Below, in pieces: positions 40,444 to 48,387 of a stretch of DNA of 64,000 nt. This stretch comes from Aeoliella mucimassa. GTDB taxonomy: Bacteria > Planctomycetota > Planctomycetia > Pirellulales > Lacipirellulaceae. The position numbers and the translations under genes were made by a program. A model generated the notes under the pieces. That model saw only the letters and a list, made by a program, of their open reading frames with translations. It searched no databases and was not told where the DNA came from. The DNA is taken from the NCBI RefSeq assembly GCF_007748035.1, contig NZ_CP036278.1:806001-870000 (forward strand), in the 5' to 3' direction. Every line of letters starts with the position of its first letter. Within the stretch, counting starts at the first letter, position 1.

Positions 40444-41490
<1,047 letters not shown>

Positions 41491-42440: not shown

Positions 42441-42512
42441 GGGAACGCTAATCTTCGCTAATCGACGCTGATATCCATTCATTAGTGATGATTAGCGAAG
42501 ATTACTGTTCCC
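42441..42512. repeat. long palindromic intergenic element (copy A)
   Basis: A perfect 14-bp inverted repeat, AATCTTCGCTAATC (42450-42463) and GATTAGCGAAGATT (42490-42503), is enclosed by GGGAAC (42441) and GTTCCC (42507-42512). It lies between the DUF1963-like and DUF58 genes. A related element with the same GGGAAC ... AATCTTCGCT(A/G)AT parts occurs at 60987-61047, so this is a dispersed repeat family rather than a terminator unique to this site. Confidence 0.75.
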
Positions 42513-42544: not shown

Positions 42545-43441
42545 ATGGCCACAGTCGAGCAATACCTGAAGCCTGCAGTGATTCAGCAGATCAAGCGGCT
42601 CGACTTGCGCGCGCAGTTCATTGTCAAAGGCTTTCTGCAGGGGCTGCATGCCAGTCCGTTTCATGGCTTTTCGGTCGAGTTCAGCGAGCATCGTAAGTAC
42701 ACGCACGGAGACAATCCGCAGGACATCGACTGGTTGGTCTACGCGAAAACCGATAAGTACTACACCAAAAAGTTTGAGGCCGAGACCAACATCACTGGCT
42801 ACCTGGTGATGGATCAAAGCCGGTCGATGGCCTACACCTACCGGCAGGAGCTCACGAAGTTCGACTACTCCATCTGCCTGGCGGCCGCGCTTTGCTATTT
42901 GATGATCCAGCAGAACGACCCGGTCGGGCTGGTGACGTTTGGCAAGAAGATCGAGCAGTTCTTGCCGCCGAAGAGCAAACGCCAGCAGATTGCCAGCGTG
43001 CTGTCGGTGCTGGCGAAGCTCGAACCTGTCGGCGAGACCGATATCTCCAAGAGCCTCACGCAACTGGCCGCGATGATCAAGCATGCCAGCCTGGTGATGG
43101 TATTCAGCGACCTGCTAGGGGACGCCGACGACACGATCTCGTCGCTCCGCCGACTCCGCCACGGCGGCAACGATGTGATCTTGTTCCACGTGCTCGACGA
43201 AGCCGAAGTTGCTTTTCCTTTCCATGGATTGATGGAACTCGAGGATCCCGAAACCAAACAAAAACTCGAAGTCGACGCCGATAACTTTAAAAAGGATTAC
43301 ACCGAAGAGCTCAAGGCATTCCGCGATCAGTACAGCGCCGAGTGCTTCAAGTCGGGCATCGACTACGTTCCCCTCGACACCAGCATGCCCTTCGACCGCG
43401 CGCTGATGGAGTATTTGGTGACACGCAGGCAGAGGGCGTAA
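42545..43441 (+). CDS. DUF58 domain protein
   Basis: DUF58 proteins accompany MoxR and are related to VWA domains. The 298-residue protein has the opening LKPAVIQQIKRLDLRAQFIV, the DUF58 signature YTHGDNPQDIDWLVYAKTDK, and a MIDAS-like VMDQSRSMAY (D-x-S-x-S form) near residue 98. A later acidic segment is VMVFSDLLGDADD. No membrane helix is seen, so it is cytoplasmic or peripheral. In its usual setting it would sit directly between moxR and batA; here moxR is about 1 kb upstream and batA about 0.5 kb downstream because of inserted material. Confidence 0.93.
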   Translation: MATVEQYLKPAVIQQIKRLDLRAQFIVKGFLQGLHASPFHGFSVEFSEHRKYTHGDNPQDIDWLVYAKTDKYYTKKFEAETNITGYLVMDQSRSMAYTYRQELTKFDYSICLAAALCYLMIQQNDPVGLVTFGKKIEQFLPPKSKRQQIASVLSVLAKLEPVGETDISKSLTQLAAMIKHASLVMVFSDLLGDADDTISSLRRLRHGGNDVILFHVLDEAEVAFPFHGLMELEDPETKQKLEVDADNFKKDYTEELKAFRDQYSAECFKSGIDYVPLDTSMPFDRALMEYLVTRRQRA

Positions 43442-43443
43442 GA

Positions 43444-43471
43444 GGCTGTCGGCCATCGGCTATCAGCTGTC
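43444..43471. repeat. heptamer array (left), four units of RGCYRTC
   Basis: Four adjacent 7-mers, GGCTGTC, GGCCATC, GGCTATC and AGCTGTC, begin three bases after the DUF58 stop codon. The same 7-mer occurs in inverted orientation at 43869-43910 on the other side of the four-helix-bundle gene, so the two arrays form an inverted pair around it. Confidence 0.85.
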
Positions 43472-43511
43472 GGCAAGCAAGAAAACACCGAGCAGAATTG
43501 AGCAACCTAAG

Positions 43512-43901
43512 ATGCAGAACTTTCGAAATCTTGATGTGTGGAAGCTTGCGCATGAATTTACGTTGAAGGTCTATCTCGAGACTCGCTCGTTTCCCAGTGA
43601 TGAACGGTTTGGTTTGACTTCTCAACTTCGGCGAGCAGCTTCTTCGATTGGTGCCAACCTGGCTGAGGGATGTGGTCGAGGCACAGATGCAGATTTTGCT
43701 AGGTTTGTTCAAGTGGCACTTGGGTCAGCGAGCGAAGTCGAATACCACTTGCTCTTGGCCAGGGACTTGCAGTTGTTGAAAGCCGAATTGCATGCCACAT
43801 TGGAAGCAGAAATACAACGAGTTAAACGAATGCTTGCCTCGCTCCTGAAGAGGCTGCGAGATCCGAACGACAGCCGACAGCCGACAGCCGACAGCCGATA
43901 G
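43512..43901 (+). CDS. four helix bundle protein (S23/bAvd-like)
   Basis: This 129-residue protein matches the TIGR02436 four-helix-bundle group: FRNLDVWKLAHEFTLKVYLE, then FPSDERFGLTSQLRRAASSI, then GANLAEGCGRGTDADFARFV, then ALGSASEVEYHLLLARDLQL. The group includes proteins once called S23 (encoded in 23S rRNA intervening sequences) and Avd-like accessory proteins of diversity-generating retroelements; most have no known function. No reverse transcriptase is nearby. The last residues and the stop codon are encoded by the right-hand heptamer array, so a change in repeat number would shift the frame and alter the tail. The gene is wedged between DUF58 and batA. Confidence 0.9.
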   Translation: MQNFRNLDVWKLAHEFTLKVYLETRSFPSDERFGLTSQLRRAASSIGANLAEGCGRGTDADFARFVQVALGSASEVEYHLLLARDLQLLKAELHATLEAEIQRVKRMLASLLKRLRDPNDSRQPTADSR

Positions 43902-43910
43902 CCGATAGCC
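43869..43910. repeat. heptamer array (right), six units, inverted relative to the left array
   Basis: Four GACAGCC units (43869-43896) and two GATAGCC units (43897-43910) are adjacent without spacing. They are the reverse complement of the left array's GGCTGTC/GGCTATC. The array codes for the end of the four-helix-bundle protein, including the TAG stop at 43899-43901, and ends seven bases before the batA-like ATG. Confidence 0.87.
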
Positions 43911-43917
43911 ATTCCCC

Positions 43918-46047
43918 ATGTCTTTCCTCGCTCCCACCTTGCTTGCTGGCGCTGCTTTGATAGCCCTTCCGGTTATCTTGCATCTGGTGATGCGCCGGGA
44001 GCCGAAGCGGGTGGAGTTTCCGGCGCTCCGTTTCGTTCGCAAGCGGCAGAGCACGAATCAAACGCGGTTGCAGTTGCGGCATTGGATTCTGCTGGCGCTG
44101 CGTTGTGCGTTCATCGTGTTGCTCGCGCTCGCGTTGTCGCGTCCCGTATGGCGGGGCACGGGGTTGTCGGCCGCTGGTAGCGAAGGCCTGGCGGCCGCGG
44201 TGGTGATGGATAACTCGCCTCGCATGAGCTACCTCTCCGACAATCAAACGCGGCTCGACAAAGCCAAAGAGACCGCCGCCTGGCTGATTGAACAGTTGCC
44301 GGCCGACAGTGAGTTGGCCGTCGTCGAGCCGGGCCGTTCGCGGCGGGCGAAGCTCGGCGATCGCGACTCGGCGTTGCTGCGAGTCGAGCGGGCGAAGATC
44401 GCTACGTCGGCACCGTCGCTGGCCGATGCGGTGAACGAAGCGATTCGCCTGGTGGCGGAGCGAGAGAACCATCGTCGTGAGATTTACGTGTTCACCGACC
44501 TGGCGGAAGCCGCCTGGAACGATGCCGCGGTCACGCAACTGGTCGCCGCGCTCGACGAACACCCCGCGACCAAACTCTATCTGGTCGACGTCGGCGAGTC
44601 GAAGTCGATCAACGCCGGGCTGGGCGAGCTGGAACTCTCGGCCGAGCATCTGGCCACCGGCGAGTCGGTCACGCTGCGGACCTATGTGACCTCCACCGCC
44701 GAGGTGGCTGGCACCAGTCGCCGTGTGGAGTTGTGGCTCGACGAACCAGGCAAGAAACCAACCAAACGCGGCGACGCCTCGGTGACGCTGAGCACCTCGA
44801 ACGAAGCGGTAGAGTTCCCCTTGGCTGGTCTGGCTGGTGGGGTGCATCAAGGCTACGTGCGACTCTCGGGCGACGATCCTCTGACGATCGACAACACGCG
44901 ATACTTCACCGTGGAAGTCGAAGCCCCTCCGCAGTTGCTGCTGGTTGGCATCGACGAAGCAGCCACTCGGTTGATGTCCGAAGCGTTGGCCCCCTCGGTG
45001 TTGGCCCAAACCGCCGCGGCTCGTTTTGGCTGCGATCGCATCTCGTACAACCAACTGCCAGCTACCAACATGGCCAGCTACGACGCGGTGCTGTTGCTCG
45101 ATCCACCTCCGCTGCACGACGATAGCTGGCGGAAGCTTAGCGACTTCGTGCAATCGGGCGGCGGGCTGGCGGTGTACCTTGGTCGTCACTCGGTGGGGCA
45201 GCTCGAAGCGTTTAACACGCCTGCTTCCAAGCTGTTGCTCCCTGCGGAGCTGCGGTGGGTGACTACTAGCAGTACCTATCTGTCGCCGAACAACTACAAC
45301 CATCCGGTGCTCAAGCAACTGGCCGACATCGGTGCCGCGACCCCGTGGCCCGCGTTCCCAGTGTTCAAATTTTGGTCGATCGGCATCCCCGATCCGGCCG
45401 CCAACGTGGTGGCCACCTATGCCGAGGGGTCGCCAGCGATTGTCGAAGGCTTTCTCGGTGCAGGTCGGGTGTTGCTGTTTACGACCACCGGAGCGGATCG
45501 CGCGAGCGACGACCCCTGGAACCTGTTGCCGACGAATCCCGATCCGTGGCCCTTCCTGGCTTTGACCGAAGGTACCGCCGACTACCTGGTGGGAGCCGAT
45601 ACCCAGCCGCTGAACAATCTGGCGGGGCGAGTGATGACGTTGCCGTTGCCGCGCCGTAGCGACCTGGCGACCTTCGTGCTCCGCCCGCCGACTGGCGATC
45701 CGCTGCCGCAGAGCTTGTCGCCCGGACAGCAGGAGATTGTGGTGACCACCACCAGCGAGATCGGTAACTATCGCGTGCAGTCGGGCGGGTCTCAGGCGCG
45801 GTTCGATCGAGGCTTCAGCATCAACACCGCCGATAGCGTGGGTCGCCTGCAGCGAGCCGATGCCACGCAGTTGGTGGCCGCGCTCGGGAAGGATCGTGCC
45901 GAGCTTGTCGAAGGCCATAGCAACCTGGCCCGCAGCATCGACCTCGGTAGCGTAGGTCGCGAGCTGTTTGGGTGGCTGATTGCGTTGGTGGCCTTGGCCT
46001 TGGGGGCCGAGCAGTTTTTGGCCGACCGTTTTTATGCCAGGCAGTAA
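43918..46047 (+). CDS. BatA-like membrane protein with VWA-like region
   Basis: The N-terminus has the BatA signature: FLAPTLLAGAALIALPVILH, then LVMRREPKRVEFPALRFVRK, then a second helix LRHWILLALRCAFIVLLALA. A VWA-like domain follows, but its MIDAS reads VVMDNSPRMS, so the second Ser of D-x-S-x-S is displaced. Residues about 330-520 resemble a glutamine-amidotransferase-like segment (LLVGIDEAATRLMSEALAPS; YDAVLLLDPPPLHDDSWRKL). A C-terminal helix (LFGWLIALVALALGAEQFLA) anchors the end. The length is 709 residues. It is co-directional with and 42 bases before the next VWA protein. It probably works with MoxR and DUF58 in the envelope; the exact role is unknown. Confidence 0.88.
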   Translation: MSFLAPTLLAGAALIALPVILHLVMRREPKRVEFPALRFVRKRQSTNQTRLQLRHWILLALRCAFIVLLALALSRPVWRGTGLSAAGSEGLAAAVVMDNSPRMSYLSDNQTRLDKAKETAAWLIEQLPADSELAVVEPGRSRRAKLGDRDSALLRVERAKIATSAPSLADAVNEAIRLVAERENHRREIYVFTDLAEAAWNDAAVTQLVAALDEHPATKLYLVDVGESKSINAGLGELELSAEHLATGESVTLRTYVTSTAEVAGTSRRVELWLDEPGKKPTKRGDASVTLSTSNEAVEFPLAGLAGGVHQGYVRLSGDDPLTIDNTRYFTVEVEAPPQLLLVGIDEAATRLMSEALAPSVLAQTAAARFGCDRISYNQLPATNMASYDAVLLLDPPPLHDDSWRKLSDFVQSGGGLAVYLGRHSVGQLEAFNTPASKLLLPAELRWVTTSSTYLSPNNYNHPVLKQLADIGAATPWPAFPVFKFWSIGIPDPAANVVATYAEGSPAIVEGFLGAGRVLLFTTTGADRASDDPWNLLPTNPDPWPFLALTEGTADYLVGADTQPLNNLAGRVMTLPLPRRSDLATFVLRPPTGDPLPQSLSPGQQEIVVTTTSEIGNYRVQSGGSQARFDRGFSINTADSVGRLQRADATQLVAALGKDRAELVEGHSNLARSIDLGSVGRELFGWLIALVALALGAEQFLADRFYARQ

Positions 46048-46089: not shown

Positions 46090-48387
46090 ATGTCTCTCAC
46101 GTTTTATCCCGTCGGCGGTTATGTCTTCGTAGCGATTGTCGCTGCGATGCTGCTGGTGGTGCTTGCGCGAGTGGTTCCGCGGCACGTGGAAGTTCCCTAC
46201 GGACGGTTGCTGACGCTCAAACTGTTGCGACTGCTGGCGATCGTGCTGTTGTTGCTCACCATGCTGCGACCCACGCTCACGTTTACTGAGAGCACGCCCG
46301 AGGAAGCCACCTTGCTGATTCTGGCCGACCGTTCGCGAAGCATGCAGGTGGCCGACGCGGTCGACAACGGCTCGCGGTTCGATGCCATGAAGCGTTTGCT
46401 CAACTCGTCGGCCAGCGATCTCGACTCGATGGGCGAGCACTGGAAGGTGCGGGCGTATTCGTTCGCGGAGACCGTAGAGCCAGCCGAGATGGAAGGGGGG
46501 CGCATCAAGCTGCCAGCCACGCCCGATGGGCAGCAGTCGCCATTGGGAGCGGCGCTGCAGGAGTTGCTCGACACCGAAGGAGACGAACGCCTGCGGGGAG
46601 TACTGGTGCTGAGCGACGGTGCCCAGCGGGCGGTGCCACCGCTCGATGCCGCGCCGCAGTTGATCGCCCGCCAGTACGCTGCCGAGGGCATTCCGCTCTA
46701 TACGTTCTACTTTGGCCAGCCCGGCAATAGCGATCGCTCCGATCTGGCGATTGAAGACTTGCTGGTGAGCGGCACCGTGTTTGCCAACGCGCCGATGCAG
46801 GTCCGTGGGCAGTTGCACGCCGAAGGGTACAACAATCGCGACGCGACCGTGCAGCTCTTGTGGGAGAAGAAAGCCGCGTACGGCACCAGCAAGATGGAGG
46901 TGGTCGACACCACTCGGCAAGCGGTGGTGACCGCCGATAGCCGGATGCCAGTGGTGCTGCGATACACCCCGGCCGAGCCTGGGGAGTACAAGCTGACCAT
47001 GCGGGCCGAAAGCCCCGATGGCGAACTGATTACTACCAATAACGAGTCGAGTACGTTCGTCACGGTCAGGGCAGGGGGCATCAAGGTGCTCTACTTGTAT
47101 GGTGCTTCGCGAATCGGTGGCGGCGGCGGAGTGGAGCAGGCGTTCGTTCCGCGAACCATTGCCGAGTCGCCCGACATCCTCGTGACCACCAAGCTGTTCA
47201 ACTACACTCGCTTGCAGCAGGACCTGCGCCGCGAACTGGTACCCGGTGCGTACGACGTAGTGGTTCTGGCGAACGTCGACAAAGACGCGTTGAACATGGA
47301 AAGCTGGACCGCGCTGGCCGCCATGGTGCAGCAGGGAGCCGGCTTGCTGATGACCGGTGGCTACCATAGTTTCGGCCCCGGTGGTCATCGCGATACGGCG
47401 ATGGCCGACGTGTTGCCGATCACCATGGGGCTGGCCGAGCGGCAGATTTTCCGCGACTCGTTGCGACAAGACATGCACATCGCAGGGCCGCTGCCGATGC
47501 GTCCTTCGGGCAACGTGGGGCCGACGCATCCGGTGATGCAGGTCTTGCCGAACGCCGCGCCGGGCAGCGGCTGGGAGGCCTTGCCGCCGCTCGATGGGGC
47601 GAATCGCCTGTCGCGCAATTCGCTCAAGGCGAACTCGCAGGTTCTGGCCGAAAGTGCCGACGCCGCGCGGCATCCGCTGCTTGTCGCCGGTCAGGCGGGC
47701 AACGGTCGCACGCTCGCCTTCGCCGGCGATACCACCTGGCGCTGGAAGATGCAAAACCATGGCGACGAGTTCCGCCGTTTCTGGCGACAGGTCGTGCTCT
47801 GGCTCGCCAAGAAAGATGGCACGCCTGAGGGCGAGGTCTGGATCGATCTGGCGACGCGGCGTATCAGTCGCGGTGGGCGGTTGGACATGGAAGTCGGAGC
47901 CACTCCGCGCGATTCCGACAACCCGCAGGCGACCATCGACTTCGAAGTCACCATCACACTGCCCGACGGTACCACCGCTCCGCTGGCAACCGTAGCGACC
48001 GATGCCGGACGACGAGCCGGCACGTTTGCCACGACCGACCAACCAGGCGACTACCTGGCGCAGGTCATCGCCAGCATTCAAGGCGAAGTGATCGGCACCG
48101 CCCAGGCGCGGTTCCTCGTGCCGAGCCAAGACCTGGAGCTCGACCGCCCCGGCGCCGAGCCAGCTTTGCTGGCAAGCCTGGCGAAGATGACCGACGAGTC
48201 GGGCGGTCAGGCGTTTGCCCCCGAGGAGCTGCCCTCGCTGCTCAAGAAGCTGGCCGACGAAAAACCGGAACTCAAAACGGAAGTCGTTCGTCGGATCACT
48301 TACTGGGATAAGTGGCCCGTGCTGCTCGCGATGGTCGGCTTGGTAGGTCTCGAGTGGTACCTGCGAAAGCGATGGGGCTTGGTCTAG
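46090..48387 (+). CDS. VWA / glutamine-amidotransferase-like membrane protein
   Basis: This 765-residue protein has two N-terminal helices (GGYVFVAIVAAMLLVVLARV; LLRLLAIVLLLLTMLRPTLT), a VWA-like domain with ILADRSRSMQV as an intact D-x-S-x-S MIDAS, and GVLVLSDGAQRAVP. A central beta-rich part follows, then a class I amidotransferase-like region (RELVPGAYDVVVLANVDKDA; MVQQGAGLLMTGGYHSFGPG) and a C-terminal helix (KWPVLLAMVGLVGLEWYLRK). It is the last gene of the MoxR operon and resembles the cytoplasmic-membrane VWA proteins found there in planctomycetes. Its natural partner is the BatA-like protein before it. A very long open frame on the opposite strand is a codon-bias shadow. Confidence 0.88.
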   Translation: MSLTFYPVGGYVFVAIVAAMLLVVLARVVPRHVEVPYGRLLTLKLLRLLAIVLLLLTMLRPTLTFTESTPEEATLLILADRSRSMQVADAVDNGSRFDAMKRLLNSSASDLDSMGEHWKVRAYSFAETVEPAEMEGGRIKLPATPDGQQSPLGAALQELLDTEGDERLRGVLVLSDGAQRAVPPLDAAPQLIARQYAAEGIPLYTFYFGQPGNSDRSDLAIEDLLVSGTVFANAPMQVRGQLHAEGYNNRDATVQLLWEKKAAYGTSKMEVVDTTRQAVVTADSRMPVVLRYTPAEPGEYKLTMRAESPDGELITTNNESSTFVTVRAGGIKVLYLYGASRIGGGGGVEQAFVPRTIAESPDILVTTKLFNYTRLQQDLRRELVPGAYDVVVLANVDKDALNMESWTALAAMVQQGAGLLMTGGYHSFGPGGHRDTAMADVLPITMGLAERQIFRDSLRQDMHIAGPLPMRPSGNVGPTHPVMQVLPNAAPGSGWEALPPLDGANRLSRNSLKANSQVLAESADAARHPLLVAGQAGNGRTLAFAGDTTWRWKMQNHGDEFRRFWRQVVLWLAKKDGTPEGEVWIDLATRRISRGGRLDMEVGATPRDSDNPQATIDFEVTITLPDGTTAPLATVATDAGRRAGTFATTDQPGDYLAQVIASIQGEVIGTAQARFLVPSQDLELDRPGAEPALLASLAKMTDESGGQAFAPEELPSLLKKLADEKPELKTEVVRRITYWDKWPVLLAMVGLVGLEWYLRKRWGLV

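Follow-up and report, generated by a model that had tools for sequence, protein, structure and literature searches.

Among the closest described relatives of the element studied here are the intervening sequences (IVSs) of 23S rRNA genes. According to the available part of one report, the Coxiella IVS has three GACAGAT heptamers, the number of which varies among strains, and a 28-bp stem with excision by RNase III (PMC4990558). The same part describes the S23 protein of X. campestris as a homopentamer, and notes heptamers in the Coxiella element only (PMC4990558). S23 proteins (PF05635/TIGR02436) are found in many bacterial phyla and have been represented by a structure since 2006, and the literature surveyed gives no function for them. 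A full-text search of published, mostly open-access papers returned no link between S23 genes and heptamer arms beyond the Coxiella IVS paper.

RAYT genes form a second comparable system. A pair of inverted REPs encloses them, genes and repeats apparently co-evolve, and cognate REPs are abundant where a rayt gene is present, while REPINs, which are inverted REP doublets with spacers, are regarded as non-autonomous mobile DNA (available parts of PMC2817692 and PMC3116915). Heptamer repeats have also been reported in their own right. X. campestris has 186 arrays of the GGGAATC type with a preferred unit number of four and no identified role in the available text, two arrays stand in convergent orientation in 70 cases, and repeats of this type were reported to form G-quadruplexes in vitro (PMC4692102). 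Heptamers were reported to outnumber every other class of longer repeat in most genomes of one survey, with slippage as the suggested cause (available part of PMC4679880). The origin of the heptamer repeats of Xanthomonas, Nostoc and Beggiatoaceae is left unexplained in the available parts of both papers (PMC4679880, PMC4692102), and neither 'S23' nor 'four helix' occurs in their main texts.

Here we describe an S23 gene between inverted heptamer arrays in the window, the whole 64-kb stretch of Aeoliella mucimassa DNA analysed, and follow the arrangement through other genomes. On balance, we favour the reading that the window block belongs to a widespread class of short elements in which the S23 protein reads its own heptamer and keeps or spreads the arms in the manner of RAYTs and REPINs, with no known nuclease.

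Results

The window block and its S23 protein

The preliminary description of this DNA had placed an S23-type gene between inverted heptamer arrays in a MoxR gene cluster (Table 1). The coordinates and the arm match confirm the block: the best match between left and right arms covers 31 nt with 87% complementarity and 405 nt between. The four left heptamers are present as claimed, at a spacing of two bases, not three, from the DUF58 stop codon (TAA, 43439-43441). The six reverse-complement heptamers on the right were borne out, ending 7 nt upstream of the batA ATG (43918), and this arm does encode the tail of the S23 protein, with the TAG stop codon falling within it. Deletion of the block would leave a gap of about 9 nt between DUF58 and batA. 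This S23 copy sits between two protein genes, not in a 23S rRNA gene.

Table 1. Features of the window block and its surrounding gene cluster (positions in the window).
Feature	Position	Strand	Remarks
MoxR-type AAA ATPase, context gene of cluster	40444..41490	+	PF07726, E 3.2e-65
Upstream host gene, DUF58 with vWA domain	42545..43441	+	PF01882, E 1.7e-51
Left heptamer arm	43444..43474	+	GGCTGTC GGCCATC GGCTATC AGCTGTC GGC (four RGCYRTC units, then GGC), G-rich orientation
S23 / 23S_rRNA_IVP / TIGR02436 four-helix-bundle gene, 129 aa	43512..43901	+	PF05635 and TIGR02436 profiles
Right heptamer arm, six reverse-complement units	43869..43910	-	Encodes last residues and stop of the S23 ORF
Downstream host gene, batA-like (aerotolerance regulator N-terminal, vWA)	43918..46047	+	PF07584, E 1.9e-20
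Further cluster gene, GATase1-like domain, context	46090..48387	+	PF07090, E 2.3e-15

The right arm is the sole strong 7-periodic tract of the 64 kb (score 33); one other tract reached the threshold (score 10), and six Markov simulations of the window gave 0-1 tracts of score at least 10 each. An Rfam scan of the block returned two sub-threshold matches only, which we take as chance. Just before the DUF58 start, at 42441-42512, the window also holds a gene-less inverted array with units of about 10 bp (GCTAATCNNC) and the outer bounds GGGAAC/GTTCCC.

The assignment of the gene to the S23 type was upheld by both profiles, PF05635 (E 8.9e-38, 129.2 bits against a curated cut-off of 33.8 bits) and TIGR02436 (E 9.8e-37, 125.5 bits against 24 bits). 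In a Pfam scan of the five cluster genes of the window, PF05635 was the only domain of the S23 protein at E 0.001, with no tyrosine transposase domain, and the Pfam and NCBIfam profile search found no catalytic domain. The AF2 model (pLDDT 93.9) is a four-helix bundle, with helices at residues 8-26, 35-54, 59-85 and 91-116, and has the fold of the solved S23 relatives 2GSC and 2RLD (TM 0.95 by target length for 2GSC), each of which contains five chains. A search of phages gave no S23 match at E 1e-5.

S23 genes commonly lie between mirrored heptamer arms

The window's own genome has three S23 genes, and the other two (L002 and L003) likewise lie between inverted tandem arrays, with the words GTTGGRN and ATGATTT. 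To the 3 own loci we added 29 that came with a search of relatives and 40 from the upper ranks of its list, giving a first set of 72 that leaves aside weaker S23 places, some of these with stop codons. A second set took the best 80 of 587 confirmed S23 matches, one genome per species, and spans Pseudomonadota, Bacteroidota, Acidobacteria, Chloroflexi, candidate phyla, Clostridia and two archaeal MAG contigs. With L144 (duplicate), L126 (run of N) and L127 (an archaeal contig with too little upstream sequence) removed, the controlled subset comprised 149 loci.

Matched inverted arms occur at S23 genes far above chance. At a score of at least 14, they were found at 118 of the 149 loci, compared with 4/149 flank pairs taken from different loci and 5/471 shifted pseudo-genes of the same loci; at a score of at least 12, the count was 129/149 against 8 mismatched pairs and 15 shifted windows. 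Tandem periodicity, with 7 (or 14) as the main period, was present upstream at 95 and downstream at 108 of the 149 loci, versus 34 of 549 control windows. After 11 duplicates were merged, the pooled set held 211 S23 loci from many phyla. Matched inverted arms, such as the preliminary description had suggested looking for around other TIGR02436 genes, are present at 189 of these at a score of at least 12, usually with different heptamer words; the remaining 22/211 have no matched arms at that score, which counts against the reading we favour.

A 7-bp unit is found at 156 of the 181 clearly periodic loci, an 8-bp unit at 19 and a 9-bp unit at 4, with one locus each of unit 10 and unit 6. Matched unit-7 arms are 30 nt long at the median and most commonly contain 4 units (69 loci) or 5 units (45), and their left arm has more G than C at 144 of 156 loci, more C than G at 9 and equal amounts at 3. 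Unit variants follow one another in mirrored order on the two arms: when units were permuted with the register re-optimised, the true order was better at 118 of 137 loci and worse at 15, with 4 ties. Thus, as read from these loci, two mirrored arrays enclose the majority of the S23 genes examined, each array having about 3-5 copies of a word of 7 bp (sometimes 8-9 bp), and the window cassette is one instance of a widespread element class. Cassettes of the same genome are never near-duplicates (89 pairs, maximum identity 0.73), which again speaks against the favoured reading. The largest number of S23 matches in any genome of its sample was 20, in G013; some of them are fragments because G013 is a draft of about 700 contigs.

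Plasmids carry the same arrangement. Among 28 plasmid records with a match, 8 S23 loci were read, and all 8 had matched arms. In cyanobacterial plasmids, S23 genes with matched arms lie between cas6 and cas4 (L381, L385) and between cmr2 and cmr3 (L383). The available part of one survey lists 18 S23 genes among the functions found with CRISPR-Cas (PMC3936711); our loci suggest that S23 genes in cas loci are insertion cassettes, not CRISPR-Cas functions. Matched arms also flank the S23 genes L379 and L380 near a TrbI/VirB10 gene, identical in two Trichormus strains.

The heptamer word follows the S23 protein

The 156 unit-7 loci yielded 122 distinct consensus words, and no consensus word recurs within any of the 32 genomes with at least two unit-7 S23 genes (32/32). 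A word similarity of at least 0.7 is reached in 6 of 80 same-genome pairs, so that the words are not fully private, a point against our reading. Between genomes, only 1-2% of pairs below 50% protein identity reach a word similarity of 0.7, versus 77% of the 48 pairs at 70-80% identity. Word similarity correlates with protein similarity overall (Mantel rho 0.24, 0/500 permutations as high) and in the 80 same-genome pairs, in which the host is constant (rho 0.41, 0/300 permutations). By these comparisons, the heptamer word changes together with the S23 protein and differs among the S23 genes of one genome. Unit length follows the protein weakly: 7 of 20 nearest neighbours also had units of 8 or 9 (null 2.3, p 0.022).

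Residues associated with the word were sought in different-genome pairs below 55% identity, with overall identity removed and kinship ignored. Net of overall identity, the residues C54, G55, D59, F62, Q67 and A109 (window numbering) were associated with the word, and none of them was in the top 14 of a flank-GC control, in which z reached up to 6.4. The control and the heptamer list (identity <0.70) have 5 of 14 top columns in common; R32, G57, A63, Q102 and R103 are therefore not to be used. In the AF2 model, residues 54-67 form the end of helix 2, a turn and the start of helix 3, and it is at this helix 2-helix 3 turn of the model that the associated residues cluster. Residues 54-67 may thus be a recognition patch for the word.

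Gene-less copies of the arms

As far as the fetched loci show, several genomes with a cognate S23 also contain scattered gene-less inverted pairs of its word, and array counts correlate with cognate S23, imperfectly. Among 79 Luteimonas-family genomes, GGGAATC arrays are found in 22 (1-279 matches; the reversed control gave 2 matches in all), S23 genes in 35, and both together in 19; for any S23 against any array, p is 2.9e-6 with kinship ignored. With strict cognate arms of GGGAATC, GTGAWTC or GGGACCS in the 79 genomes, arrays were present in 13 of 14 genome-heptamer combinations, and in 12 of 14 at five matches or more (Fisher p 0.0005, 0.0002 and 0.006, respectively, kinship ignored). Arrays of at least five matches also occur where a strictly cognate S23 was not found, for GGGAATC in 14, GTGAWTC in 7 and GGGACCS in 2 of the 79 genomes. 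GGGACCS arrays without a strictly cognate S23 are present in G056 and G076, and GGGAATC arrays with no S23 found in G089 and G098. In G107, whose S23 has GGGAATC arms, the more degenerate pattern GGGATTN had 181 matches versus 34 for GGGAATC; G087, whose S23 has GGGATTC arms, had only 5 GGGATTN matches. All these cases of imperfect matching count against the favoured reading.

In G105 and G088, the pattern used recognised convergent pairs at 21 of 25 fetched gene-less loci; their arms have about 3-5 units, in some cases more. The 21 interiors of these pairs (33-244 nt) look unrelated, and a MITE-like conserved interior was not found in the two genomes, nor was a target-site duplication seen by eye beside the 21 gene-less and 2 S23 pairs. 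The loci read included no exact pair of empty and filled sites from strains of one species. By eye, a terminator-like hairpin lies inside the gene-less pairs L284, L285 and L287. Several gene-less pairs also have a short motif in common just inside the arrays, GGCCAGA/TCTGGCC in G001 (L408-L411, L413, L415) and GGAARAGC in G105 and G088 (L264-L288), again judged by eye; this is perhaps an extra end signal.

The window-type word GGCTNTY had at least four matches in 6/6 cognate genomes versus 3/33 others (p 2.6e-5, kinship ignored); the six cognate relatives were assigned by eye from fetched S23 arms, those of G003 being looser (GGCTRTR). In the GGCTRTC and GGCTNTY searches, the reversed-pattern control is not independent for tandem arrays. 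Eight array sites of the sister species G001 lie away from S23; 6 of them are gene-less inverted pairs, 2 have an array on one side only, and the single array site read in G003 is a gene-less pair. In the window's own genome, 0 of 11 other sites of the word are gene-less inverted pairs, a result against the favoured reading. At 10 of them the word stands at one end of a different, dispersed repeat, and the eleventh site is isolated; three exact GGCTRTC units occur at the window array only. The dispersed repeat (L397-L405 and L407; ..GGCTTTTTAGTGATTGGAGGTGAT..CGACTAGCGACGCGCAGG..) carries the window heptamer at one end, and no matched right arm was found at these loci.

Samples of 400 kb, too few to weigh alone, were also read. 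G014 (6 S23 genes) has unit-7 inverted pairs at three sites in one 20-kb stretch (L321), for which arms of resident S23 genes rank at best 1, 6 and 10 of 156, and 0 such pairs were found in G035 (no S23 match) and G000 (3 S23 genes). Units of 9-10 bp were also seen in pairs of G014, while G035 had one pair with 10-bp units and one with 8-bp units.

The preliminary description had counted arrays at intergenic sites with no gene against a cassette. Such arrays do exist; where inspected in detail they are often inverted pairs that share their heptamer with a resident S23, so that they extend the cassette idea and do not end it.

Empty and filled sites

An empty site between DUF58 and batA in relatives had also been proposed as a check, and junctions with almost no gap were found. 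Of 39 genomes searched, 30 loci were fetched and 27 were readable, including the window; 4 of the 27 junctions have a gap of only 0-12 nt. The S23 gene with unit-7 arms is present at 4 (window included), gene-less unit-7 arms at 5, unit-8 arms at 1, and other sequence at 13, including the borderline unit-7 case L037. The four S23 genes at this site formed one clade in 0% of 200 bootstraps; more than one arrival is therefore likely, with losses possible, so that from this tree S23 has likely reached the DUF58-batA junction more than once.

At a second junction, guaB-guaA, the 30 loci read came from Xanthomonadaceae. Gene-less arms with at least four different words (by eye) stand there in seven genomes, and the junction is nearly gapless in G123, G080 and G124, G123 being 97% identical to G088 over the GuaA N-terminus. 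Other loci have terminators or further inverted repeats. A different inverted-repeat element, of the GGGAATCC/GGATTCCC type with CGCGGGAATGAC at its right end, was seen by eye in four genomes (L293, L295, L307, L308).

Alternative explanations

S23 could be a passenger: a different enzyme, such as a RAYT or a host polymerase, would spread the inverted heptamer elements, and some of these would carry the gene. The protein has no nuclease domain, array sites greatly exceed S23 genes in several genomes, the interiors of gene-less pairs look mutually unrelated, and arrays are present in genomes that have no cognate S23, all of which fits a passenger. A passenger would not be expected to have a heptamer that tracks its sequence even within one genome (rho 0.41) or word-associated residues that cluster at one turn, and we regard this explanation as unlikely.

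The arms could instead act in RNA only, as an intervening sequence whose RNase III-cut stem frees the S23 message from the host transcript, dispersed arrays then being unrelated or processing sites. Folded as RNA, the window block has its arms paired (MFE -171.3, z -2.9, 0/100 shuffles as good), and it pairs better than as DNA (z -1.5, 10/100 shuffles as good). The excision by RNase III reported for 23S rRNA IVSs and the Coxiella stem with its GACAGAT heptamers (available part of PMC4990558) agree with such a role, as does an S23 gene with inverted GACAGAG/GACGGAT arms inside a plasmid 23S rRNA gene of Azospirillum lipoferum. Against it, the arm mismatches read as sense RNA have no G-U bias (136 wobble-compatible versus 194 not, that is, G-U versus A-C); selection for a sense-RNA stem alone is therefore unsupported, and the stem was rejected as the sole selected feature. 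Moreover, a plain stem needs no 7-bp period, no word that follows the protein and no gene-less copies matching the resident S23. We consider an RNA-only role quite unlikely.

Ordinary simple-sequence repeats, arising by polymerase slippage or upheld by G-quadruplexes and lying beside S23 by chance, are highly improbable. The abundance of heptamers with slippage as the proposed cause (PMC4679880) and the G-quadruplexes formed in vitro by GGGAATC-type repeats (PMC4692102), each from the available part of the paper, speak for them. Such repeats would not match across the gene in mirrored order or be confined to so few control windows (34/549), and among the 156 consensus units, 53 have GGG, 52 have GG only and 51 have neither. 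Finally, the proposal of the preliminary description that the right array is a C-terminal frame switch, in which gain or loss of one 7-bp unit alters the protein tail, is rejected as barely conceivable: the window array does encode the S23 tail and stop, and the right arm begins upstream of the stop codon at just 62 of 189 loci, the stop lies 5' of the array in congeneric copies at the same site (L009/L075 and L010/L054), and the array-encoded last residue block is modelled with low confidence (mean pLDDT 55).

Discussion

How the block is laid out, how widely this recurs, how its words match the protein and how gene-less copies are linked to it can be read directly from the sequences. To account for them, the reading we favour would have S23, a homopentamer in a solved relative, bind its own tandem heptamers via the helix 2-helix 3 turn. 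By analogy, the arms and the S23 protein would act like REP sequences and a RAYT, with the protein keeping or spreading inverted-arm copies and the gene-carrying copy encoding the reader. Pairing of the arms in DNA or RNA could keep them mirror images of each other. No nuclease domain is known in S23, so a host enzyme or a strand-switching step would have to provide the cutting and joining. The stem in the transcript could be cut by RNase III, as in 23S rRNA IVSs, and an operon would then suffer almost no harm from an insertion; the window copy would be such an insertion between DUF58 and batA. The small mobile or repeat-guided cassette of the preliminary description thus stands as a repeat-guided unit, far wider than the window, while its movement is something we infer, as are the binding by S23 and the role of the ring.

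A wider proposal, possible and put forward tentatively, is that these elements are a nuclease-free, repeat-coded form of selfish DNA in which S23 rings read private 7-base words, keep mirrored ends and seed gene-less copies, and which would include the IVSs, the S23 genes of cas operons and the heptamers of Xanthomonas and cyanobacteria. If each S23 reads the heptamer at its ends, the function of S23 and the origin of heptamer repeats become one testable question, and the 156 heptamer-armed loci would be ready protein-word pairs for binding assays and for breaking the code. S23 genes in cas, MoxR and conjugation operons would then be insertions, not parts of those operons. Our results suggest that S23 reads a word of its own, with many unexplained bacterial repeats as its satellites.

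Compared with known systems, the S23 protein is similar in fold to Avd of diversity-generating retroelements (4DWL, 8UBB/8UBE; TM-score 0.83-0.85 by target length), at a Foldseek E of 0.045-0.1, weaker than for 2GSC/2RLD. Unlike Avd, it scores 13.9 of 80 bits against NF033474, far below the cut-off.

The heptamer repeats of Xanthomonas and Nostoc (GGGAATC, GGGGAYT) and the TAACTGA repeats are approached by the Luteimonas S23 gene L107, whose product is 73% identical to XCC0516 and whose arms are made of GGGAATC units. In contrast to our elements, these repeats are linked to no gene in the available parts of PMC4679880 and PMC4692102. Unlike G-quadruplex repeats, the window unit has GG only and no GGG.

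As in the 23S rRNA IVSs, the S23 gene lies within complementary ends in an element of about 430-470 bp, and the ends of the window block (31 nt, 87%) are paired in the RNA fold. The window copy differs in lying between protein genes; the 23S words, when searched across the set of S23 loci, were found at L386 only. The IVS literature surveyed does not give heptamer ends, protein-matched words or gene-less relatives as general features.

The RAYT/REPIN system differs in protein and in repeat, S23 being a four-helix bundle that lacks the tyrosine-transposase domain and its repeat a tandem heptamer array. Its plan is nevertheless similar: the window gene is flanked by two cognate inverted repeats, and, with kinship ignored and the protein unrelated, the presence of S23 correlates with the abundance of its cognate repeat.
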